From the NCBI GenBank assembly GCA_015233035.1, contig JADFYM010000010.1, positions 1 to 35,253 of the forward strand: 35,253 bases of DNA. The letters are read 5' to 3'. Below are positions 18,696-30,465 of the stretch, piece after piece; the stretch's first letter is position 1, and each line of letters opens with the position of its first letter. A model generated the notes under the pieces. It was given only the letters and a program-made list of their open reading frames with translations, had not been told where the DNA came from and made no database searches. Source of the DNA: Magnetococcales bacterium (GTDB taxonomy: Bacteria > Pseudomonadota > Magnetococcia > Magnetococcales > Magnetaquicoccaceae). Made by a program: the position numbers and the translations under genes.

Positions 18696-18735
18696 GGACC
18701 CCACCGGGGGGGGATAATCCCCCCGGACTCCCTGG
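18696..18735. repeat. Module A GC palindrome, single unit
   Basis: GGACCCC, then a palindrome with ATAAT centre and CCGGGGGG/CCCCCCGG arms, then GGACTCCC. It lies 5 nt behind the petC stop and could serve as the 3' end hairpin of petABC, although no T-run follows on the plus strand. Module B follows 9 nt later. Confidence 0.75.
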
Positions 18736-18744
18736 ATAATGATC

Positions 18745-18793
18745 AAAAAAAAAGGGTGGAGGGGTCTGGGGAGGCGGAGAACCGCCTCCCCAG
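18745..18793 (-). terminator. Module B terminator-like hairpin with T9 (minus strand)
   Basis: A perfect 12-bp stem (18766-18777 with 18782-18793, CTGGGGAGGCGG) with a 4-nt loop. On the minus strand it is followed by a C-rich spacer of 12 nt and nine T (18745-18753). Three near-identical cassettes occur at 21073, 24680 and 27551. Its orientation suits transcription coming from smpB, about 330 nt away. Confidence 0.65.
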
Positions 18794-18866
18794 AAAGGGT
18801 GTTCGGCACCTCCCAATCAGCCTTGTCACGCCACCCTGTGCCAGAAAACAACGGTGTCCTTTCAGG

Positions 18867-19019
18867 AGGCCTTGATCATCGTTTCGGCCATTCCAGTCAG
18901 AACCCTGGATTCACGCCTTCGCGGGAATGACGAGCGAATTTCGTGTCATACCCATTCCCGTCATGCCCGCGAAGGCGGGCATCCAGGGGAGTTCATGGAC
19001 GAAACGATGATCAAGGCCT
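18867..19019. repeat. Long imperfect inverted repeat (possible MITE or REP-type element)
   Basis: The outer arms are a perfect 20-bp inverted repeat (18867-18886 with 19000-19019, containing GGCCTTGATCATCGTTTCG). The inner arms are a 29-bp inverted repeat with three mismatches (18904-18932 with 18959-18987) containing the CGCCTTCGCGGG and CCCGCGAAGGCG cores. The whole forms a long hairpin of about 150 nt with no coding capacity. The inner core resembles the short CCCGCGAAGGCGGG palindromes scattered in many proteobacterial genomes. Confidence 0.7.
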
Positions 19020-19090
19020 TTCAGGATAACCGGACCTGAAGAGTCACAATCCAAACAAACGCCGAAAAGGCATCACAAGGGGGGGGATGG

Positions 19091-19114
19091 GGTGGGGCGG
19101 TTGACCGCCCCACC
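19091..19114 (-). terminator. GC hairpin directly after smpB
   Basis: A perfect 10-bp stem (GGTGGGGCGG at 19091-19100 with its complement at 19105-19114) and a 4-nt loop lie 6 nt behind the smpB stop. On the minus strand a C-rich tract follows, as in module B, but the T-run is missing, so it looks like a worn copy of that cassette. Confidence 0.55.
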
Positions 19115-19119
19115 GGTGA

Positions 19120-19575
19120 TCATTCTCTGGAGTCCGACAGGATGCGGGCTTTGTCACGATTCCAGTCGCGTTCCTGGATGGCGTGTCGTTTGTCGTACAA
19201 ATTTTTGCCCCGACCAACGCCCACCTCTATCTTGACCTTGCCATCTTTCCAGTAGGCTTTGAGGGGAATCAGGGTCAGCCCTTTTTCCCGGCTCAGGCCG
19301 ATCAAACGACGGATTTCTGCGCGATGGGCCAAGAGTTTGCGGGTGCGCAGGGGATCGTGGTTGTTCAGATTGCCGTGGGTGTAAACGGCAATATTGGCGT
19401 TGAGCAAGACCAGTTCGTTGGCCTGCACCACGGCATAGGCGTCGTGGATGGTCAGCTTGCCGGCCCGCACAGATTTGACCTCGGTGCCGAGCAGGGCGAT
19501 ACCGACCTCCAATTGTTCCAGAATTTCATAATTAAACCGCGCCTTGCGGTTTTCAGAGATGATCTTGATGCCCAT
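19120..19575 (-). CDS. smpB: SsrA-binding protein SmpB
   Basis: Binds tmRNA and delivers it to stalled ribosomes for trans-translation. It has 151 residues, the normal length. Recognisable blocks are ISENRKARFNYEILE at the N-terminus, GIALLGTEVKSVRAGK, the NLNNHDPLRTRKLLAHRAEI stretch, and the basic tail GRGKNLYDKRHAIQERDW that enters the ribosomal mRNA channel. The ATG at 19575 is 14 nt behind the cytochrome c gene, with only a weak ribosome binding site, so coupling to that gene is likely. No tmRNA gene was recognised in the window. Confidence 0.97.
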   Translation of the reverse strand: MGIKIISENRKARFNYEILEQLEVGIALLGTEVKSVRAGKLTIHDAYAVVQANELVLLNANIAVYTHGNLNNHDPLRTRKLLAHRAEIRRLIGLSREKGLTLIPLKAYWKDGKVKIEVGVGRGKNLYDKRHAIQERDWNRDKARILSDSRE

Positions 19576-19589
19576 GCGGCCCGAAGCAA

Positions 19590-19898
19590 CTATTTACCCA
19601 GGCTGGAGAAATAGGCGGCCAGATTGTCGATATCGGCATCGGTCAGGTTTTTGGTTTGTGGGTTCATCAAGGGATTGACGCGCTTGCCCTCCCGGAAGGC
19701 TTTCAATTGAGCGACGAGGTAGGCTCCTTTTTGGCCAGCGAGGTTGGGTTGGGTTTCCACCTTGCTCAGGCCATCCAGTCCATGGCAGGCGGCGCAGACA
19801 GCGGCTTTGGCTTTGCCAGCGGCGACATCTCCGGCGGCGAAGGCGGGGCTGGCGATGAGAGCAGAGGCCAGCAGAACTCCTGCAACGAGCTTTTTCAC
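19590..19898 (-). CDS. Small periplasmic monohaem cytochrome c (class I)
   Basis: A predicted soluble electron carrier, 102 residues including a signal peptide. The GTG at 19898 is chosen because AAGGAGA lies about 7 nt upstream and the protein then starts with a classic signal peptide ([21 protein letters not shown]), cleaved before AGDVAAG. The mature part has CAACH (haem attachment), the [12 protein letters not shown] stretch typical of c552/c553-like proteins, and a Met in VNPLMNPQ as probable sixth ligand. It ends with [13 protein letters not shown]. An obvious partner would be the bc1 complex 1 kb away, but that link is inference. Confidence 0.92.
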
Positions 19899-19990
19899 AC
19901 GTGTTCTCCTTGAAATTGAACAAAATCTGTCAACGGCACCCATTGCCGCTGACGTGATCCTCAACCCAACACAGTCAAAAGTTGTCCTGT

Positions 19991-20040
19991 TCGGGGCTTT
20001 GGATCCAACCAGGGGGACAATCCTTTCTGGACCCCTGAAT
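19991..20040. repeat. Degenerate module A repeat behind dapA
   Basis: The stretch around CCAACCAGGGGGACAATCC and TTCTGGACCCCTGAAT resembles the intact array at 24591-24666, with several changes in the second arm, and it begins with a GGGGCTTTGG remnant of the second unit type. It sits 9 nt behind the dapA stop. The damaged arms suggest an old copy. Confidence 0.5.
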
Positions 20041-20048
20041 GATTGGAA

Positions 20049-20927
20049 TTATGATACCGCCAGGCCAATCCGCACCATGGCCTGCCGCAACGGTTCCCGA
20101 TGCACCTCTGCCAACGGGGTCAACGGGAGCCGAATTTCCGGGCCACACAAACCCATCATGGCGGCGGCGGCCTTGACCGGGATGGGATTGGTTTCGCAAA
20201 ACAGCAACCGGTTGATCTCCAGCAAGCGGGTATGGGTATGACGGCTGGCGGTCAAATCGCCTTTGCAGAATTGCCGCCACAGGGTCACCATCTGGTCGGG
20301 GGCAATATTGGTGGAGACCGAAATGACACCCGCCCCACCAATGGCCAGGAAGGGCAAAAAGGTGGCATCGTCACCCGACAGCAAGGTAATCTGTCCGTTG
20401 GTCTTTTCCAGGATGATGGAGGCCCGTTCCATGTTGGCGGTGGCCTCTTTGAGGCCGACGATCCGGGGATGCTGGGCCAGACGGGCGACGGTATCGGGCA
20501 GCATATCGACGCCGGTACGACTGGGCACATTATAGAGCACCAGGGGAATATCGACGGCCTCGGCCACGGCCTGATAGTGGCGGACCAGCCCTTCCTGGGT
20601 GGGTTTGTTGTAGTAGGGGGTGATCAGCAGGGCTCCGTTGGCACCGGCCTGTTGAGCGAAGCGGGTCAGTTCGATGGTCTCTGCCGTGGAATTGGAGCCG
20701 GTACCGGCGATGACCGGGACGCGGCCATTGACCTGTTGCAGGCAGACCTCGATGACGTGGCGGTGTTCGGCATGGCTCAGGGTGGCGGATTCGCCGGTGG
20801 TGCCGCAGGGCACCAGACCGCTGATGCCGTTCTGGATCTGAAATTCGATCAAGTGGCGCAGAGCGGCATCGTCCACCTGGCCGTCTTTGAATGGGGTGAT
20901 CAGTGCGGTGAAGACGCCTTTGAACAT
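20049..20927 (-). CDS. dapA: 4-hydroxy-tetrahydrodipicolinate synthase
   Basis: Condenses pyruvate with aspartate semialdehyde, the first committed step to diaminopimelate and lysine. It is a 292-residue TIM-barrel aldolase. The pyruvate-binding motif GTTGESATL (T43, T44), the catalytic triad tyrosine Y106 in TPYYNKPT, Y132 in LYNVPSRTG with R137, and the Schiff-base lysine K160 in GLKEAT are all present. The ATG at 20927 has AGGAG seven nt upstream. dapA close to smpB is a common alphaproteobacterial arrangement; here a cytochrome gene lies between them. Confidence 0.97.
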   Translation of the reverse strand: MFKGVFTALITPFKDGQVDDAALRHLIEFQIQNGISGLVPCGTTGESATLSHAEHRHVIEVCLQQVNGRVPVIAGTGSNSTAETIELTRFAQQAGANGALLITPYYNKPTQEGLVRHYQAVAEAVDIPLVLYNVPSRTGVDMLPDTVARLAQHPRIVGLKEATANMERASIILEKTNGQITLLSGDDATFLPFLAIGGAGVISVSTNIAPDQMVTLWRQFCKGDLTASRHTHTRLLEINRLLFCETNPIPVKAAAAMMGLCGPEIRLPLTPLAEVHREPLRQAMVRIGLAVS

Positions 20928-21072
20928 GGCGCGCTCCTATTCCTGAAAGAGAGGCGGTTTTGCTGGCCGCATCTGTGTTGAACCTGTTTTACCAGCGACC
21001 AAGCTACCGGAATTGGCGACCGATCACAAGGGGTTCTTGCTATCGGTAACCGGATCTGGGGCCAAAACGAGT

Positions 21073-21122
21073 AAAAAAAAAGGGTGGGGGGGTCTGGGGG
21101 GGCGGTTCACCGCCCGCCCCAG
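21073..21122 (-). terminator. Module B terminator overlapping the end of the TPR gene
   Basis: The stem (21094-21105 with 21110-21122, one bulge) has a loop TTCA on the plus strand that holds the stop codon of the TPR gene (21107-21109). On the minus strand a 12-nt C-rich spacer and nine T (21073-21081) follow. The opposite strand carries four closely spaced runs of three or more G, a potential G-quadruplex. Confidence 0.75.
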
Positions 21123-22564
21123 AAGGGGGCATCACTATCCTTTCCCCAGAAGGGGGCATCGCTGTCTTTTCCCCAGAAGGGGGTTTCTTGTGCTTGGCGT
21201 ATGGCAGCGATTTTGTCTTTTGTGACGGTGATGGCAGGCAAGTCGCCGAGTTTCTCGAAGACTGGGAGTTGTTCTTCATGGATACGCAGGGCCAGGTCGA
21301 GTTCTCCCCGTGCTTTGTGGACATCGGCGATTTTGCTCATGATGGTTGTGCGAGAGTGGAGGTCGCCGATTTTTTCGAAAACCGGAAGTTGTTCCTTGTA
21401 GGCACGCAGAGCCTCGTCGAATTCTCCCCGCGATTTAAGTACATCTACGATTCTGGTTATGGTAACGGCGCGGAGGCGGATGTCGCCGATTTTTTCGAAG
21501 ATCGGGATTAATTCCCTGTAGACGCGCAGAGCCTCGTCAAGTTGTCCACGCGCTTGGAGCACATGTGCGATTCCGCCCATAGCGATGGCTCGTTCGCGGG
21601 TGTCGCCGATTTTTTCGAAGATCGGAATCTGTTCCTCGTAGATGCGCAGAGCCTCGTCGAGTTGTCCCTGCCCTTGGAGTACATCTGCGATTCTGCTCAT
21701 GGTGATGGCGCAGAAGCGGAGATCCCCGAGTTTTTCGAAAACTGTAAACACCTCATTCTTTAATAAATTTAAGGCTATCTCCGATTCTCCTCGAAGCAAC
21801 AAGGATTCCACCATGAGTATTCCGACCTCGGATGCGGTGCGTGGGTCATTCTGATCTTCAAACAGGGTGCGCGCCTTGCGCAAATCCGCCAAAGCCTTGT
21901 CCCACTCTCCCAATTGTCTGTGCAATTGTCCCCGTTCTTTCCATAGGCTGGCCACGGCCCATGAGGGTTCAGGATAGGTGGCCAGGTGGTTGTCAATGGT
22001 TGAAATGCGTTGCACGGTATCGTTATGCCGGAGGTTAATCCGCTCGACATCAAGGAGGGGAGGCAGAATCGCCTCTTGTTGCGGTCTGCTGGGTCGGGTA
22101 AAGGTTAACACCGCACTGCGCCAGGACCACAGGTCCGGGGCCTCCAGGGCGAGGGTCCGCAACTCGGAAGGGCTGAGCCAGATGAGTATCGGTCTGGCGG
22201 CTTTTTCGGCCATAATGTCCCGCATGCCGTTGAGCAGCCAACAAAAACGCATCCCCTGTTCCAGCCGCAACCAGGTTCCCAGTTCCAAAATATGCACGGG
22301 CGCGTGATCCGGTGGCAGGGCAGCCAATGCTTCCAATACCGGTCCCGAACTGACCCAGTCGAGAGGCATGACCAGTTGCTTACCGGGATAGCCCATCTCC
22401 GCCAAGCGTTGGATGATGGCATCCCGATAGCGGCGTTCCCCGTATTCCAGGAATACCAATATAAACCGAGGATTGTTCCCCAGTAGGCGATCCAATTGCA
22501 GGAGCGCGCCCGAGTGTTCGCTGGACAGCGATGGAAGTGGGTCCGAATCAGCCGAGGGGGGCAT
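21107..22564 (-). CDS. TPR protein, probable sensor partner of the adjacent ATPase
   Basis: A 485-residue protein. Residues 30-155 form an alpha/beta domain containing NGMRDIMAEKAARPILIW and then APDLWSWRSAVLTF; this pattern resembles a module I associate with bacterial STAND-type proteins, where it links the NTPase to the TPRs. Residues about 200-460 are tetratricopeptide repeats. Residues 281-440 are four units of exactly 40 residues, each ending in FEKIGD or a close variant. The last 25 residues are three copies of a PFWGKDSDA-like unit encoded by 27-bp DNA repeats derived from the downstream terminator. The start ATG 22564 overlaps the ATPase gene by 17 nt, so the two are probably translated together. 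I cannot name a function beyond a likely ligand-sensing or scaffold role. Confidence 0.85.
   Translation of the reverse strand: MPPSADSDPLPSLSSEHSGALLQLDRLLGNNPRFILVFLEYGERRYRDAIIQRLAEMGYPGKQLVMPLDWVSSGPVLEALAALPPDHAPVHILELGTWLRLEQGMRFCWLLNGMRDIMAEKAARPILIWLSPSELRTLALEAPDLWSWRSAVLTFTRPSRPQQEAILPPLLDVERINLRHNDTVQRISTIDNHLATYPEPSWAVASLWKERGQLHRQLGEWDKALADLRKARTLFEDQNDPRTASEVGILMVESLLLRGESEIALNLLKNEVFTVFEKLGDLRFCAITMSRIADVLQGQGQLDEALRIYEEQIPIFEKIGDTRERAIAMGGIAHVLQARGQLDEALRVYRELIPIFEKIGDIRLRAVTITRIVDVLKSRGEFDEALRAYKEQLPVFEKIGDLHSRTTIMSKIADVHKARGELDLALRIHEEQLPVFEKLGDLPAITVTKDKIAAIRQAQETPFWGKDSDAPFWGKDSDAPFWGGR
21117..21183 (-). repeat. 27-bp tandem repeats in the TPR gene end
   Basis: Units begin at 21117, 21144 and 21171 with CCCCAGAAGGGGG on the plus strand. 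The first two are 27 nt long and differ at few positions; the third diverges after its first 13 nt. The repeated core equals the outer arm of the module B hairpin that ends the gene, which suggests the arm was duplicated and became coding. Confidence 0.8.
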
Positions 22565-23864
22565 GGCGTGTGTAGCCTGGCAAAGTCTGTACGATGGGAT
22601 GGGAACGCCACCAGTGGTCGTTGTATTCCAGCAATGCCAGTACCTTGAATAATTTGGTCAGTTCTGGTCTGTCTGGTTGCACATCATCGCCCGTGTCGAT
22701 CATCCGCATCAACTCGTAATCTCTGGCTTCGAGCAGTCGGCGAAAATCCGACGCCATGCTGGCCACAGCCTTGTCAGCGGCGGTGCGATCCAGGCGATTG
22801 TGTCGGCTTTTTTGCCAAGTCAGACTGAGTAGACGTACCAGGTCACGGGGATGTCCACCGCAGTGGTCGATCAGATGATCCACGGTCTCCATGCCGTCGA
22901 ACCATTGGAGCGGAACGCGCCGCAGGACCATTTCCCGCAGAGTTGCTCGGGCGTCGTTGTCGCTGAAAGATCCATCCCGATTGTACAGCTTTATCATGGG
23001 GAGACGGCATACAGCACTGTACTGTTGTTGTAGAGCATTGGTCTCAAACAGGATGTGAATCGGTGCGCCATAGAGAAAATTGGCACGAATTTGTTGCAAT
23101 TGATGGACATCCTCAATGAAGAAACGATGGGTATCTTTCCCGTTGAGCTTGTCCGTTCCGTCAATGATAAACAACAGGCCTCGTCCCAAATGACTCTCCT
23201 GGAGCAGACGATTGGCTTCGTCAATCAGGGCGTTGAAGGCTTCCGCGAATTCTGCAAAGCTGTTACGTACCACTTCGCGCAACTCATCCTTGTAGGAGGC
23301 GTTATATCGAAAGGCATTGGTTACCTTGACCAGAAAATCGCTGATAAAGGGCAGAGAGAGACCAGCCTTGATTTCTGTTGCCAACTCCGTGGACAACGTC
23401 TTGTCCGTCATGCGTGTGATCACATGTTGTGTGAACCAGACGTGCAGACGATCCAAATATACTGCATCCACTATGAGTTGTTTTTCCTGCAAGGCAGAAC
23501 AGAGCCGTTGGGCACAAGTGAGTAACAAGTCCACATACTGGAGATTTTGCGGGTCGAGTTCGTTGCGGGCATCCAACAAGATGACATGGTAGCCATCCGG
23601 GTTGTGTAGAGTGCTCTGAAGCCGACGCATTTCTGTACTCTTGCCGCAACCAATATGACCTGTGAAAAGCAGGTACCGGCGATTCGGCACTTTCACCACC
23701 CGCGACGTGTTCGGATCTACTCCCAACTCTTGGTAGAGATCATGAAAGCTGAACTCACCCCGGGCATGGGCTGTATCCACATATAACGGATCATCCGGCT
23801 CCAGTGCCCGATTGGGCTCGAGATTGTCTCCGAGTTTAAAAAACTCCAATAATTCATCGCTCAT
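22548..23864 (-). CDS. P-loop ATPase (AAA/STAND-like)
   Basis: A 438-residue protein of the AAA/STAND-like ATPase group. The Walker A motif is GHIGCGKST (residues 69-77), preceded by RRYLLFT. Walker B is LLFIIDGTDKL (about 230-240), ending in a single aspartate. A late block CGGHPRDLVRLLSLTW is typical of the winged-helix/sensor region of such ATPases. There is no membrane segment and no recognisable effector domain. The start ATG 23864 has GGAGG eight nt upstream and follows the nitroreductase stop by 22 nt. The 17-nt overlap with the TPR gene suggests the pair works as one split STAND-like signalling unit. What it senses or triggers cannot be seen. Confidence 0.85.
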   Translation of the reverse strand: MSDELLEFFKLGDNLEPNRALEPDDPLYVDTAHARGEFSFHDLYQELGVDPNTSRVVKVPNRRYLLFTGHIGCGKSTEMRRLQSTLHNPDGYHVILLDARNELDPQNLQYVDLLLTCAQRLCSALQEKQLIVDAVYLDRLHVWFTQHVITRMTDKTLSTELATEIKAGLSLPFISDFLVKVTNAFRYNASYKDELREVVRNSFAEFAEAFNALIDEANRLLQESHLGRGLLFIIDGTDKLNGKDTHRFFIEDVHQLQQIRANFLYGAPIHILFETNALQQQYSAVCRLPMIKLYNRDGSFSDNDARATLREMVLRRVPLQWFDGMETVDHLIDHCGGHPRDLVRLLSLTWQKSRHNRLDRTAADKAVASMASDFRRLLEARDYELMRMIDTGDDVQPDRPELTKLFKVLALLEYNDHWWRSHPIVQTLPGYTRHAPLG

Positions 23865-23886
23865 TGGTCCATCCTCCGCTCATCAT

Positions 23887-24495
23887 TCACTCTCCGAAAC
23901 GATCCACAATCCGCACCGTTTCCAGGGCCAGTTGACCAGCCCGAGGCCGGGCGGGCTGGAGGGCCTTGCCGATGGTGACAAACATCGCGATGGCATGATC
24001 CGCCGGCAACTGGATCAACTGCCCCACGGCCGCAAAATCAAACCCGTCCATGGGGCAGGAATCATATCCCATCCCCTGGGCCGCCAGCATCAACGTCTGG
24101 GCGGCAATGCCACAGGAACGCATTGCCTCATCCCGTTGCACCTGCGGGCGTCCGTCGTAGTACTGGTGAATGGCAGGCAGGATAAAATTTTGTGCCTCCG
24201 GCGGGGCGTTGCGCCAGTAACGGAGCGGCTCCTTTTGCCAGGCTCCCAGATCGGCACACAAGACGATCAACAGCGAGGCGTCGGTGACCTGGGCTTGGTT
24301 CCAGGCGACTGTGCGAATCTGCTGGCGCAAGGCCGGATCCCGCACCACCACAAAACGCCAATGCTGAATGTTGAAGGCCGTGGGGGAGAGCATGGCCAGT
24401 TGGATGAGACGCTCCTCTTCCGTCTGGCTCATGGGATGGTTCGGATCGAACAATTTGACAGCCCGACGATTTTCGATGGCAGAAAAAATTTCCAT
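23887..24495 (-). CDS. Nitroreductase family protein (FMN-dependent)
   Basis: A 202-residue oxidoreductase of the NfsB/NADH-oxidase-like fold, normally a homodimer that binds FMN and reduces nitro compounds, quinones or flavins with NAD(P)H. The N-terminal FMN-phosphate box MEIFSAIENRRAVKLF and the stretch LSPTAFNIQHWRFVVV are typical. AAQTLMLAAQGMGYDSCPMDGF matches the second flavin-contacting segment. The ATG at 24495 has GGAG nine nt upstream; the longer open frame upstream is only read-through of module A repeats. It is the first gene of a probable operon with the ATPase and TPR genes. Substrate unknown. Confidence 0.93.
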   Translation of the reverse strand: MEIFSAIENRRAVKLFDPNHPMSQTEEERLIQLAMLSPTAFNIQHWRFVVVRDPALRQQIRTVAWNQAQVTDASLLIVLCADLGAWQKEPLRYWRNAPPEAQNFILPAIHQYYDGRPQVQRDEAMRSCGIAAQTLMLAAQGMGYDSCPMDGFDFAAVGQLIQLPADHAIAMFVTIGKALQPARPRAGQLALETVRIVDRFGE

Positions 24496-24590
24496 GGTGG
24501 GTTGCTCCGGGGGTGTGGGTTGGCAGGTCAATGGGTAAGCGGAAGGGGGGTGGGAATGTGTGTTTATGGTTTTGACTATCGTGTTGCTCG

Positions 24591-24666
24591 CCAGGGGCTT
24601 TGCCCCTGGACCCCACCAGGGGCTTTGCCCCTGGACCCCACCAGGGGGATGATCCCCCTGGACCCG
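24591..24666. repeat. Module A array, three units
   Basis: Two units with a CTTTG centre (CCAGGGGCTTTGCCCCTGG) and one with a GATGATC centre, each separated by ACCCCA. It lies between folB and the nitroreductase gene and is in the same relative orientation to the following module B as at 18696. Both repeated unit types also occur at 27271-27343. Confidence 0.8.
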
Positions 24667-24679
24667 CATTCATATTATT

Positions 24680-24730
24680 AAAAAAAAGGGTGGGGGAGGC
24701 TGGGTGGGGCGGTTCTCCGCCCCACCCAGC
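24680..24730 (-). terminator. Module B terminator of nrnC-folB
   Basis: A perfect 14-bp stem (24699-24712 with 24717-24730, GCTGGGTGGGGCGG) with a 4-nt loop begins 5 nt behind the folB stop. It is followed on the minus strand by a C-rich spacer and eight T (24680-24687). This is the cleanest of the four copies and is placed exactly where a terminator for nrnC-folB is expected. Confidence 0.8.
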
Positions 24731-24735
24731 AAGGG

Positions 24736-25116
24736 TCACAACGACCGCCGCCGTCGCAAGGTGACACCCACCCAACGGGCAAACCGCACCGCACCCGGTT
24801 TTTTGACCGACACCTTGACCCGACAAACTCGCGGATAAGCCAGGCAAAGCCCGGCGATACGCTCGGCCAGAGTCTCGACGAGCAAAAAACAGGACTGTTC
24901 CGCCAAAGCAATGATGGCCTGGCTCACAGCCGCATAATCGATGGTCTCTTCCAACCGATCACTCTGGCCCGCCGAGGCGAGATCTGCTTGCAGGACGACG
25001 TTGACTCTGACCTCCTGCACCGTATGGCGTTCCCACTCCAGCACGCCGATGATACAGCGCAGACGCAGATCGTGAATTCGGATCCGATCCAGCGGGGCCG
25101 CGTCAGGAGTGGGCAA
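24736..25116 (-). CDS. folB: Dihydroneopterin aldolase
   Basis: Cleaves 7,8-dihydroneopterin to 6-hydroxymethyl-dihydropterin and glycolaldehyde in folate synthesis. It has 126 residues. The pterin-binding glutamate in IIGVLEWER (E27), the tyrosine in IDYAAVSQAI (Y61), the LVETLAERIA block and the catalytic lysine in VSVKKPGAVRFA (K106) are present. It starts with TTG at 25116: GGAGG lies exactly six nt upstream and no ATG or GTG is suitably placed. It overlaps nrnC by 14 nt. The related epimerase FolX is a less likely alternative. The last residues are Arg-rich. Confidence 0.9.
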   Translation of the reverse strand: MPTPDAAPLDRIRIHDLRLRCIIGVLEWERHTVQEVRVNVVLQADLASAGQSDRLEETIDYAAVSQAIIALAEQSCFLLVETLAERIAGLCLAYPRVCRVKVSVKKPGAVRFARWVGVTLRRRRSL

Positions 25117-25747
25117 AGATATCCTCCGCCTCCCATCCCGCCAGATCCAGGGTGACCCGGGTGGGCAAAAAGGCCATGCACTCCCGTGCCAGTTCCAGCC
25201 GACCCTCGCGTTGCAGCATCACCTCCAACGCCTCTTTCAGGGTAACCAGATGGATCACGTCGGATTGTACATATTGCAATTGTTTGGCGGACAGGGTGAC
25301 TGCGCCCCAATCGGAAGATTGCTGTTGCTTGTCCATTTCCACGCCCCGCACCTCGCGGACCAGATCCTTGAGGCCGTGAAAACCGCTGTAGGTGCGAATC
25401 AGACGGGAGGCAATCTTGGTGCAAAAGACCGGTTGCACCTGAATGCCGAGCCAATGGCGCAACGTGGCCAGATCATAGCGGGCAAAGTGAAAAATTTTTT
25501 CGACCGCAGACGATTCTAGTACCGCTTGCAGACGGGGGGCCGGTCGCCGTTGGGCGGCCTGTTCCTGTGAGATCTGCACGATGGCCACCGCTCCGTTTTC
25601 GTTGCACATTTGTACCACGCACAGTCGGTCGCGCAAGACATTCAACCCCATGGTTTCGGTATCGACCGAGAGATAACGACTGCTCAGGTACCGTTGCTGA
25701 TATTCCGCATCCAGATCGCCCTGGAAGACTTTTGGCTGGGTTTGCAT
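25103..25747 (-). CDS. nrnC: NanoRNase C (RNase D-like 3'-5' exonuclease)
   Basis: A DEDDy exonuclease that, in alphaproteobacteria, degrades the shortest RNA products (diribonucleotides). It has 214 residues and lacks the HRDC domains of true RNase D. The catalytic residues are in SVDTETMGL (D29, E31), HFARYDLATL (D92) and YVQSDVIHL (Y159, D163). The blocks VFCTKIASRLIRTYSG, KQQQSSDWG and the end GWEAEDIFAHS match NrnC closely. The ATG at 25747 is preferred; upstream codons are open but unlike the family. It is followed by the overlapping folB and then a module B terminator. It diverges from the gene at 25902. Confidence 0.92.
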   Translation of the reverse strand: MQTQPKVFQGDLDAEYQQRYLSSRYLSVDTETMGLNVLRDRLCVVQMCNENGAVAIVQISQEQAAQRRPAPRLQAVLESSAVEKIFHFARYDLATLRHWLGIQVQPVFCTKIASRLIRTYSGFHGLKDLVREVRGVEMDKQQQSSDWGAVTLSAKQLQYVQSDVIHLVTLKEALEVMLQREGRLELARECMAFLPTRVTLDLAGWEAEDIFAHS

Positions 25748-25901
25748 AGTGGTCACGGCTCCACGCCTCGCAAAAAAGTGTAAAAGAACAGTCACACGGT
25801 CGGACAGACGCAAAAAGAGGTGTAGCCCTCGCGCTGGAACTGTGGCATAATTCCATATTCCCGTTATAAAGCGTTCTGGATGGAATGGAAAGGATTTGGC
25901 A

Positions 25902-27194
25902 ATGGCATCGAAAGATAATTATACCGTCGAGCAACTGGACCGCATTCGCACCACGCTGGGAACCGCGTTGGGGGACAAGTCGGCCCAGGCCCTGGAGGCT
26001 CTGGAGACCCGTTTTTCACCCGCCCCGGATATTTCCGAGGAAGATGAAAAACTGATGAAATTGCGCGAAAAAATGGATAATCCAACGATCGATGTGGACT
26101 CTGTGATTGCGACGGGTCGTCTGGATGCCATGATTGGCGTGTTGGAAAAGGCCAAAAACGAACCGGACAAGCAGAAACGCTTGGTGACCTCCATCCTGGG
26201 TCACAAGGATGCCAAGCCGCCCCGTCTGGTGGAGGCCTTGAGCAAGGTCAGCAACCAGAAAGAGTTGGTCGAAGATCTGGTGGCGGGTATTGTGGCCCAG
26301 CGCGGGGTCAATCCGCTGATCGATGCCTTGCGGCACGCCACGATCAGCAAGACGGCCTATGAGGCACTGGCCAATGGTATTGCCGAGCAGGGTACGGTCA
26401 ACCACATGATTCGCACGATTGCCGCCGCGCCAGCGGGCCAACCCGATGCCGAGTTGCTGTGGGCGATGGAGATCATGCGCAAGGGGACGGTGGAGCAGAT
26501 GCTGGAGGCGATGAACCTGCTGAATGACAGTTCGCCCGGTGTGGTTGCCTTGGCCTCGGGGGTGGCCAATCGCAAGGATGTGGGGGTCGAGCAGATGGTG
26601 CGGGGGCTCTCCTTCTGTAAAAACAATGCCAAGGCTTCGGCCATTCTGGCCCTGGAGCTGACCCGGATTGCGGATATCAATGCGGTCGTGGTCATTCTGG
26701 AAAAATATATCAGCGATGCGACGGATGCGGGCGAAATTCTGGTCGTCAAGCTGGTGCATCGGGCCAAGTTTGCCCGCAATCGGGAACCTTTGCTGCTCAA
26801 GGCGACCCGTTTCATGCGGGGCAACTCCATGGCGGGCAAAATTTTGGCCATGGGTATCTATGAGATGGGCGACCCGGAAAAAATTGTGCAGGCTTATGGT
26901 CGCATGGCCGGTCATCCTGCCGCGCAGAAGGTCATGGCCTGGGGGGCATTCAGAAAACTGGGGGCCTTGAAGGCGATGTCCTTGTTGGGCAAGGAATATT
27001 TCCGCATGGGGTCGCAGCAGGCGGAGGTGGAGGCGACGCTCAAGGAGGCCCGGCAGCGGTATGAATGGGTGTTGCAGGAGGTGTTGGGCGAAGATCCCAC
27101 CCTCAAGCCGGATCCCGAACCGCCCAAAACAGAACCGCCCAAAACAGAAGCACCCAAAAAAGAGGCGGCCAAAAAAGAGGCACCGAAAAAATAG
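25902..27194 (+). CDS. Uncharacterised helical-repeat protein with Pro/Lys-rich tail
   Basis: I do not recognise a family. The 430-residue product has no signal peptide and no clear membrane helix. From about residue 70 to 370 it looks all-helical, with units of roughly 35-40 residues of the form (GI)A-x2-G-x-V-x2-MI-x-AL (for example GVNPLIDAL, GTVNHMIRTI, GTVEQMLEAM, GVEQMVRGL), reminiscent of HEAT- or ARM-type solenoids. The C-terminus is a low-complexity tail of PPKTE, PKKEA and AKKEA units, positively charged, as in surface- or nucleic-acid-tethering tails. The ATG at 25902 has GGAAAGGA seven nt upstream. A CATAAT or TATAAA box (25846-25871) may be its -10 element, without a good -35. 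Alone in its transcription unit. Confidence 0.8.
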   Translation: MASKDNYTVEQLDRIRTTLGTALGDKSAQALEALETRFSPAPDISEEDEKLMKLREKMDNPTIDVDSVIATGRLDAMIGVLEKAKNEPDKQKRLVTSILGHKDAKPPRLVEALSKVSNQKELVEDLVAGIVAQRGVNPLIDALRHATISKTAYEALANGIAEQGTVNHMIRTIAAAPAGQPDAELLWAMEIMRKGTVEQMLEAMNLLNDSSPGVVALASGVANRKDVGVEQMVRGLSFCKNNAKASAILALELTRIADINAVVVILEKYISDATDAGEILVVKLVHRAKFARNREPLLLKATRFMRGNSMAGKILAMGIYEMGDPEKIVQAYGRMAGHPAAQKVMAWGAFRKLGALKAMSLLGKEYFRMGSQQAEVEATLKEARQRYEWVLQEVLGEDPTLKPDPEPPKTEPPKTEAPKKEAAKKEAPKK

Positions 27195-27213
27195 CATGTG
27201 CAAGGGGTGCCTG

Positions 27214-27240
27214 CCCTATGCACACATCTTTATGCTGATA
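27214..27240 (-). repeat. 27-bp dispersed repeat (family C), copy 2
   Basis: Reading on the minus strand it starts TATCAGCATAAAGATG and matches 128-154 at 26 of 27 positions. It lies 19 nt behind the stop of the helical-repeat gene. With 27418-27436 it forms an inverted pair around a module A array. Confidence 0.6.
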
Positions 27241-27270
27241 AAAAAATCCGAAGTATATTGTGCAGTCATA

Positions 27271-27343
27271 GGGGTCCAGGGGGATTATCCCCCTGGTGGG
27301 GTCCAGGGGCGAAGCCCCTGGTGGGGTCCGGGGCGAAGCCCCG
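27271..27343. repeat. Module A array, three units
   Basis: The units have ATTAT, CGAAG and CGAAG centres (for example GGGGTCCAGGGGCGAAGCCC), in the orientation opposite to 24591-24666. The near-perfect identity between units suggests recent expansion or gene conversion. Confidence 0.8.
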
Positions 27344-27417
27344 TGAGGAACACACGATCAACACGTGGAGGAATTTGCCCCTCACCGGGGAGCGTGGCGG
27401 TTCCCGGTTTCCTGCAA

Positions 27418-27436
27418 AAGTTGTGTGCATGGGGTA
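27418..27436 (+). repeat. Partial family C repeat, copy 3
   Basis: AAGTTGTGTGCATGGGGTA matches the core of 128-154 at 17 of 19 positions and is inverted relative to 27214-27240. The short length makes the assignment tentative. Confidence 0.4.
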
Positions 27437-27499
27437 TCCCGGAGGGAGATGGGAAAAAAGAGCTGTGAATCAATGGGATAGGGGAAAATCTGCACTTGC

Positions 27500-27530
27500 G
27501 AGGGGATTATCCTCCCCCCGGTGGACCCCG
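27500..27530. repeat. Module A GC palindrome, single unit
   Basis: GAGGGGATTATCCTCCCCCC followed by GGTGGACCCCG, a slightly altered copy with the usual ATTAT centre. It lies 21 nt upstream of the module B stem, whose order relative to module A is reversed compared with 18696 and 24591. Confidence 0.65.
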
Positions 27531-27550
27531 ACGGGTTGGTGAAACCCTTG

Positions 27551-27600
27551 CTGGGGAGGGCGGAGAACCGCCCCCCCAGACCCCCCCACCCTTTTTTTTT
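27551..27600 (+). terminator. Module B terminator-like hairpin with T9 (plus strand)
   Basis: The stem (27551-27563 with 27568-27579, one bulged A) has the loop AGAA, followed by ACCCCCCCACCC and nine T (27592-27600). The T-run is on the plus strand, so it would end transcription from the helical-repeat gene before it runs into the convergent STAND gene, whose stop is 8 nt further on. Confidence 0.7.
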
Positions 27601-30133: not shown

Positions 30134-30465
30134 GCCGGGTTGCCTCCTGGGATGGCGTGGTCGGAGAGTGGCCTGGCGGCCAGTGGGGCTGGGACATGAC
30201 CTGTTCATGTCTCTTGTTGCGCAGGGGATGGGCAGGGTCGTCCCCTGCCATCCGTTGTACCGTGCAGGATACAGGGGGAGGCATGAGAAGGGGTTCGGTC
30301 CATGGGAGACGGCCGCGATTCCAGAAGCAAGCGTCCAGAAATTTCCAATGCGCGTGCCGTGATCACGATGGCATTTCTGTTCCGTGCACGCTACAATACC
30401 CGTAACGGTTGCGGTTTTCATCCTGCACCCGCTGCTCTCCTGCCAGCCCACTCGACGGTGCCGCC
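30134..30465. other. Divergent intergenic region between STAND NTPase and Rpn nuclease genes
   Basis: These 332 nt must hold the promoters of both divergent genes. On the plus strand TACAAT (30392-30397) is a possible -10 element for the nuclease gene, without a convincing -35. Mutually exclusive hairpins can form: GCAGGGGA 30221-30228 with 30241-30248, or GGCAGGG 30231-30237 with 30243-30249. The open frames crossing the region have no recognisable content. Confidence 0.45.

Follow-up and report, generated by a model that had tools for sequence, protein, structure and literature searches.

Module B, a dispersed intergenic repeat of Magnetococcales with the layout of a potential purine-motif intrastrand triplex

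The stretch of Magnetococcales DNA analysed here (35,253 nucleotides, the whole of which is called the window) carries four copies of a short element, termed module B, near the ends of genes for cytochrome c1, smpB, a TPR protein, folB and a NACHT protein. Gene names in the window are the Pfam matches of eight window proteins, one of which (25902–27194) matched no Pfam family, and a search of the window for known RNA families gave no Rfam match. Module B combines a GC hairpin, a C-rich spacer and a T-run. It is interpreted below, with moderate confidence, as a repeat of intergenic space that favours neither orientation and whose build would allow a class I (purine-motif) intrastrand triplex. 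The copies, and one worn relative, are located as follows.

18745–18793, minus strand (T-run on the minus strand): module B copy 1, an exact mirror, with arm CCTCCCC and spacer CCCCTCC
18745–18767, plus strand: 5' half of the G-rich strand of copy 1, with A9 at 18745–18753, the third-strand tract GGGTGGAGGGG at 18754–18764 and the loop TCT at 18765–18767
18768–18793, plus strand: 3' half of the G-rich strand of copy 1, with the purine arm GGGGAGGCGG at 18768–18777, a loop at 18778–18781 and the pyrimidine arm at 18782–18793
21073–21122, minus strand: module B copy 2, C7 arm and C7 spacer
24680–24730, minus strand: module B copy 3, with a CTGGGTGGGGCGG stem, arm CCCCACCC and spacer CTCCCCC, which do not mirror each other exactly; about 5 nt past the folB stop (24736)
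27551–27600, plus strand: module B copy 4, C7 arm and C7 spacer; 7 nt separate its T-run from the stop (27608) of the NACHT gene, which is convergent and on the minus strand
19091–19114, minus strand: worn hairpin related to module B, without a T-run, about 5 nt past the smpB stop (19120)

An earlier note on this DNA had described these four copies as one conserved terminator-like cassette, and its account of their positions and architecture was confirmed. The GC arms are 12–13 nt long (with bulges in copies 2 and 4), the loop has 4 nt, and the C-rich spacer of about 12 nt ends in CCACCC and is followed by T8–9. The worn fifth copy named in that note is likewise a real hairpin. The four are members of a conserved-sequence family and not unrelated terminators. 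The motif is commoner than chance: the exact spacer-plus-T pattern, outside which the fourth window copy falls with GGCTGGG, was found three times in the window and never in 100 shuffles. As single-stranded DNA, the G-rich strand of copy 1 was folded into the hairpin with the spacer free (z-score -6.8) by a program that cannot predict triplexes. The stop codon (TGA) of the TPR-protein open reading frame (ORF; 21107–22459, minus strand) sits in the hairpin loop of copy 2. The end of this ORF (21107–21190) consists of PFWGKDSDA repeats encoded by 27-bp repeats.

Mirror relation between the stem arm and the spacer

The genome search proposed in the earlier note, with the spacer plus T-run at up to two mismatches, gave 106 matches in the 4,525,783-base genome (55 and 51 by strand), and a backwards control gave one. 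On the T-run strand the consensus reads CTGGGGAGGCGG, AGAA or TGAA, CCGCCTCCCCAG, A, CCCCTCC, ACCC, T8–9 and AATMAT. A total of 141 copies were parsed, of which 94 came from this genome (G000), 22 from genome G035, 21 from G005, two from G006, one from G004 and one from a contig of a metagenome-assembled genome (MAG). The T-run was 8 or 9 nt long in 120 of them (the search patterns demanded at least six T), and the spacer between stem and T-run measured 11–15 nt in all 141. The patterns used to gather loci fixed or favoured CCACCC and the T-run, so the conservation of those letters is overstated; the arm was constrained only through CTGGG or CAG. Upstream of the hairpin, conservation was weak in this genome (alignment of 83 of 93 copies). 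Two large subfamilies were present among 93 copies, T/T with 45 and C/C with 41.

The 3' arm (CCG to AG) was compared with the spacer (linker base to ACCC) on the C-rich strand of the 141 parsed copies. The arm read backwards equalled the spacer exactly in 95 copies, and the two were of equal length in 120. When arms and spacers were paired at random, exact mirrors numbered 31.8 on average (maximum 48) and equal lengths 73.1 (maximum 92); these controls used 142 rows, including one spurious row that was dropped from the later counts. Among the 85 copies with a T-containing arm and equal lengths, the mirror position of the spacer held T in 77, A in six, C in one and G in one, and T stood at the direct-repeat position in a single copy. 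The weight given to the spacer in the earlier note was therefore well placed, since the spacer mirrors the 3' stem arm. The 95 exact copies fall into six variants (T4, T5, T in a 10-nt arm, C6, C7 and C8), and most non-matching variants are single-copy. The exact variants are distributed as follows.

Arm CCTCCCC, spacer CCCCTCC: 31 copies in G000, 17 in G035, one in G005
Arm CCTCCCCC, spacer CCCCCTCC: 14 in G005, one in G004, one in G006
Arm CCCCTCCCCC, spacer CCCCCTCCCC: two in G000
Arm C7, spacer C7: 20 in G000, one in G005
Arm C8, spacer C8: five in G000
Arm C6, spacer C6: one in G000, one on the MAG contig

Among the non-mirror variants only two reach five copies: CCCCACCC with C7, and CCTCCCC with CCCCACC (five copies in G035 and one in G000), the latter giving T over an A-T pair. 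Watson-Crick pairing of the spacer with the 5' arm was also considered and rejected; read by eye, the extra C of the G005 and G004 variants lies on the side expected from mirror pairing, not from antiparallel pairing.

Proposed triplex formation and competing explanations

Along the G-rich strand of module B, A8–9 precedes the third-strand tract of 10–11 nt; a loop of 3 nt (TCT) leads to the purine arm, and a loop of 4 nt leads on to the pyrimidine arm. This is the class I order among the purine-motif intrastrand triplexes of PMC4666352. If this strand became single during replication, repair or supercoil-driven opening, perhaps aided by the neighbouring A/T tract, the hairpin could form, and the G-rich tract could then fold back antiparallel into its major groove. 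Alternatively, the mirror repeat may form H-DNA in the duplex. Such structures might promote polymerase pausing or local rearrangement, as proposed for BoxC/TM-ECO, and the spread of the family may have been aided by other mobile repeats.

Triplets were counted by position in the 113 equal-length copies with a parsed 5' arm, giving 690 G.GC, 65 A.AT and five T.AT. Third-strand misfits in this set include A.GC (8) and T.GC (3), and Watson-Crick failures include G.GT (23) and G.GG (9). The purine arm has one C:G interruption, opposite which the third strand has T. PMC10609763 lists T.C:G for both motifs as a possible natural but weak triad with a single hydrogen bond. The criteria for intrastrand triplexes given in PMC4666352 are stems of 6–15 nt, loops of 1–6 nt and at most one mismatch in stems of at least 7 nt. 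A stricter class I/II scan (stem at least 8 nt, at most one misfit) gave 44 matches in 285,883 bases of G000 loci and none in one block shuffle. Module B accounted for 39 of the 44, a share that does not extend to the whole genome because the scanned loci were chosen for carrying module B. By locus set, these 39 matches came from 60 G000 loci with 50 parsed copies, and 15 more came from 17 G035 loci.

Several observations weigh against the triplex reading. Exact mirroring is absent from 46 of the 141 copies, among them ten of the variant CCCCACCC with C7, in which the extra base can be read as one bulge. Counted by distinct arm/spacer types, exact mirrors make up only six of 35 (shuffled mean 2.6, maximum 9), which is weak alone; by the same count lengths are equal in 24 of 35 (shuffled mean 11.9, maximum 21). 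Because the copies fall into subfamilies, few independent changes underlie the joint variation, some of which may be inheritance. The strict scan gave only three matches in 61,919 bases of nine G005 loci and was passed by only one of the four window copies, copy 1, with a 10-nt stem and one misfit. The T4-type consensus has the class I motif, but many individual bulged copies do not, and the T-tail has no clear role in a triplex. Exact Watson-Crick pairing of the two arms was found in only 81 of the 134 copies with a complete 5' arm. The mirror was exact without exact pairing in 26 copies and pairing was exact without the mirror in 17; a mirror repeat, and hence possibly H-DNA in the duplex, is therefore favoured at least equally with the intrastrand fold. 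That arm and third strand co-evolve across species by purine-motif triplet rules is advanced as a tentative proposal that we would sooner doubt than assert.

The position of copies relative to genes, which were called by a codon-usage script of our own trained on 162 long ORFs, bears directly on a role in termination. According to the earlier note, the T-run invariably shares its strand with the gene that ends close by. This did not hold: two of the four window copies have their nearest stop in a gene of the opposite strand, and of 110 copies in this genome 45 have a hairpin-side gene that reads into the element and 44 one that reads away (seven inside called ORFs, 14 unassigned; binomial P 1.0). 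A first set of 92 copies from this genome gave 36 and 37, with seven inside ORFs and 12 with no gene called on that side, and the 161 copies of all genomes gave 65 and 62 (eight inside ORFs, 26 unassigned; binomial P 0.86). In the window, about 53 nt lie between copy 1 and the cytochrome c1 stop (18691, plus strand) and about 326 nt between copy 1 and the smpB stop, and copy 4 lies about 356 nt from the plus-strand gene. Random placement, which the same note had named as the outcome that would count against its interpretation, was found for strand and not for position, as copies are mostly intergenic. Of its proposal that module B is a mobile or gene-converted termination element, the first half fits the lineage-specific copy number, whereas a general termination role is unsupported because orientation to genes is random, and the element was rejected as a generally gene-oriented terminator.

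A more specific form of that idea, which we regard as unlikely, makes module B an unusual intrinsic terminator, in which hairpin, spacer and U8–9 are transcribed and the spacer zips onto the hairpin as a pyrimidine-motif RNA triplex that pulls the transcript from RNA polymerase. The constancy of the T-run is in its favour, as is the finding that 23 of 36 sense copies begin within 41 nt of the stop of the upstream gene, one of them overlapping the stop. Classic hairpin-plus-T terminators were also rare at the 3' ends sampled (11 of 220, versus six in one shuffle, at loci chosen for module B), and some genes may therefore use sense copies of module B. Apart from the random orientation, the terminator is opposed by the spacer, which in every parsed copy parts the stem from a U-tract that ought to follow it directly. 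The sense RNAs of three consensus forms were predicted to form the hairpin with the spacer unpaired (by programs that cannot predict triplexes), and related PIT elements had no terminator activity in Escherichia coli, as reported in PMC4666352. Among 26 copies between two opposite-strand genes, 12 lie about 59–81 nt upstream of a start codon; this pattern and the stop-proximal one are both compatible with insertion into intergenic space that spares promoters.

A second rival takes module B as a mobile repeat of the repetitive extragenic palindrome (REP) or miniature inverted-repeat transposable element (MITE) type. Mobility itself is compatible with a triplex; the rival explanation lies in denying the mirror any meaning, as an inheritance from few master copies, and we consider it possible but doubtful. 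It draws on the patchy copy number, the two large subfamilies, the resemblance of the flank to MITE ends in part of the copies from other species and the REP-like module A, which lies 9–24 nt past the T-run in the same orientation in 36 of the 82 copies whose flank was long enough, and never in the opposite orientation at that place. The six exact mirror variants, however, need repeated matched changes of arm and spacer. No transposase for module B was found either; the Y1 transposases of this genome belong to four identical IS200-like copies, whose ends are unlike module B, and one unexamined fragment. A G-quadruplex element, finally, is very improbable. The potential pointed out in the earlier note, four G-runs of at least three on the opposite strand, is real in three of the four window copies (the exception is 18745–18793) and in 50 of the 54 copies whose 3' arm lacks T, yet it is present in only five of the 87 copies with an arm T, and those subfamilies expanded as well. 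What copies with and without an arm T have in common is the mirror between spacer and 3' arm. With G-runs of at least three and loops of 1–7 nt, only 55 of the 141 copies qualify, and the four-run quadruplex was rejected as a conserved feature.

Distribution and neighbouring repeats

Module B was found in five genomes of one family and on one MAG contig. A length-tolerant pattern matched seven of 48 genomes of the order, with 95 matches in G000, 24 in G035, 21 in G005, two in G006 and one in G004; two further genomes (G044 and G045) had one match each without a comparable hairpin, and the other 41 had no match to this pattern. A fixed-length pattern under-reports copies outside G000 and G035, and the 21 copies in G005 were recovered with the length-tolerant one. 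A third pattern matched once in G029; the match lay in a G-rich run, and the control had one match in that genome too. A scan of a genome collection, from which records near the genome of the window may be omitted, returned one contig only, from a MAG labelled Bacteroidia. This contig, which is perhaps misbinned, carries module B with an exact C6/C6 mirror together with a MITE-like end. No exact module B match was found in a viral collection. Lineages differ strongly in copy number, as would suit a mobile or recombining repeat. In G035, 14 of the 17 exact matches listed are at most about 100 bp away from a contig end, and the element or its partner repeats therefore seem to break that assembly.

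At the junction between the TPR-protein gene and dapA, module B is present both in this genome (copy 2, C7/C7) and in the congener G004 (CCTCCCCC with CCCCCTCC); the flanking proteins of the two genomes share 51% and 88% identity. At this junction the spacer and the 3' arm have undergone like changes and the length of the 5' arm has been kept; replacement with another copy is a possible explanation of the difference. A second junction may be shared between G000 (locus L047) and G035, its two flanks lying on different contigs. Two more genes have a copy at the same gene end in both species in opposite orientation (L063 and L179, L077 and L094). Past the end of smpB, module B was not observed in G002, G003 or G004 (in G004 over 420 of 594 nt; the length-tolerant pattern gave no other G004 match), nor past the end of folB in G002, G003, G004 or G005, a comparison covering three of six congeners for smpB and four of six for folB.

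The other repeats near the window copies are located as follows.

18696–18733, minus strand: module A, REP-like (GGGGTCC-stem-GGTGGGGTCC), beyond the T-run of copy 1 in the same orientation
24633–24669, minus strand: module A, beyond the T-run of copy 3 in the same orientation
27268–27304, plus strand: module A unit in the intergenic region shared with copy 4, on the upstream side of copy 4
18867–19019, no strand assigned: MITE-like repeat of about 151 bp with 25-bp terminal inverted repeats (GGCCTTGATCATCGTTTCGGCCATT)

Module A had 232 matches. A unit was present on the other side of module B in eight of the 82 copies tested, ten further copies having been left out as too near a sequence end. 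Four further class I matches in the G000 loci resemble module A units, so that B and A together may make up two triplex motifs in inverted arrangement, of the kind known from some BoxC units. Several module A units that have no module B are preceded by modules such as AAAAATCCGAAGCATATTGTGCAG.

The 151-bp MITE-like repeat has at least some thirty copies at 90–98% identity, and a 19-nt pattern of its end gave 208 matches in this genome. By eye, TTTCAGGA on both sides of the repeat at 18867–19019 looks like an 8-bp target duplication. A MITE-like end with at most nine mismatches was found just before the hairpin in 12 of 21 copies of G005, seven of 18 of G035, ten of 102 of G000, the single MAG copy and neither of the single copies of G004 and G006; the lowest mismatch count in a control of one shuffle per flank was 11, and 17 of the 161 copies had no usable flank. 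Another repeat of about 230 bp (27204–27436) recurs in the genome at about 81–90% identity.

An IS200-like element that spans about 667 bp and encodes a Y1 transposase is present in four copies with 100% identity (L142, L147, L149 and L151), one of them about 20 nt from a module B hairpin. Its ends, considered as a source of module B, look unlike it by eye. A link to RAYT transposases is doubtful, since Y1 transposase counts do not track module B counts (five Y1 matches and 95 copies in G000, one and 21 in G005, four and none in G002, none and two in G006). Elsewhere in the window, ARAGORN called a tRNA-Val spanning 98 bases (30160–30257), which may be a false positive; it lies immediately upstream of where the minus-strand NACHT gene was called to start.

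Relation to known systems and significance

The closest likeness of module B is to the BoxC/PIT/TM-ECO repeats, as described in PMC4666352. Both are G/C-rich repeats of the purine-motif intrastrand triplex type, with stems of 9–10 nt and a 3-nt loop between the purine tracts; both are intergenic, lack strand bias and diverge in copy number between close relatives, and inverted pairs, known for some BoxC units, may occur here too. TM-ECO is class II, with the pyrimidine arm first, the third strand last and GGGNGAGGG stems, and has the consensus CCCTCNCCCN3-6GGGNGAGGGN3GGGNGAGGG according to the same paper. Module B, in which the third strand comes first, does not fit that consensus in either order or sequence. 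It also differs in its C:G interruption met by T, its A8–9/T8–9 tail and its partner, which is the different, REP-like module A. BoxC is reported there to fold stably in vitro, to have given no protection in an in vivo footprint and to have had no promoter or terminator activity in earlier work.

Other known systems share single features with module B. Intrinsic (Rho-independent) terminators likewise have a GC hairpin and a T-run on one strand, but not its long spacer between stem and T-run, conserved sequence and random orientation to genes. Like REP sequences and the mosaic elements built from them (BIMEs), module B is a short intergenic palindrome of about 100 copies, combined with a second module in fixed order; it differs in the mirror repeat beside the palindrome and in that, by our own length split, no Y1 transposase of RAYT length is among the five matches in the genome. 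No paper on REP sequences in Magnetococcales was found in the literature search. With H-DNA-forming mirror repeats it shares a homopurine mirror of about 10+3+10 bp with one interruption, whereas the adjoining inverted repeat of module B lets one strand alone supply all three strands of a triplex. On the best reading, module B adds a new class I family to the bacterial intrastrand-triplex (BoxC/PIT) repeats already known, judged against literature searched by intrastrand triplex, mirror repeat and BoxC rather than by sequence.

For genome annotation, module B indicates that a hairpin of conserved sequence followed by a T-run need not be a terminator. Its wider interest lies in the question whether intrastrand triplexes play a part in the cell at all. 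A second family that differs in sequence and in the order of its strands, and varies with the triplet rules, amounts to a natural mutational series, and the matched and mismatched copies in one genome let the importance of the third strand be asked. If arm and third strand do co-evolve by these rules, the family would provide comparative evidence that a DNA triplex, whether intrastrand or H-DNA, is under selection in bacterial genomes, and the triplex-competent variants would be those that multiply.

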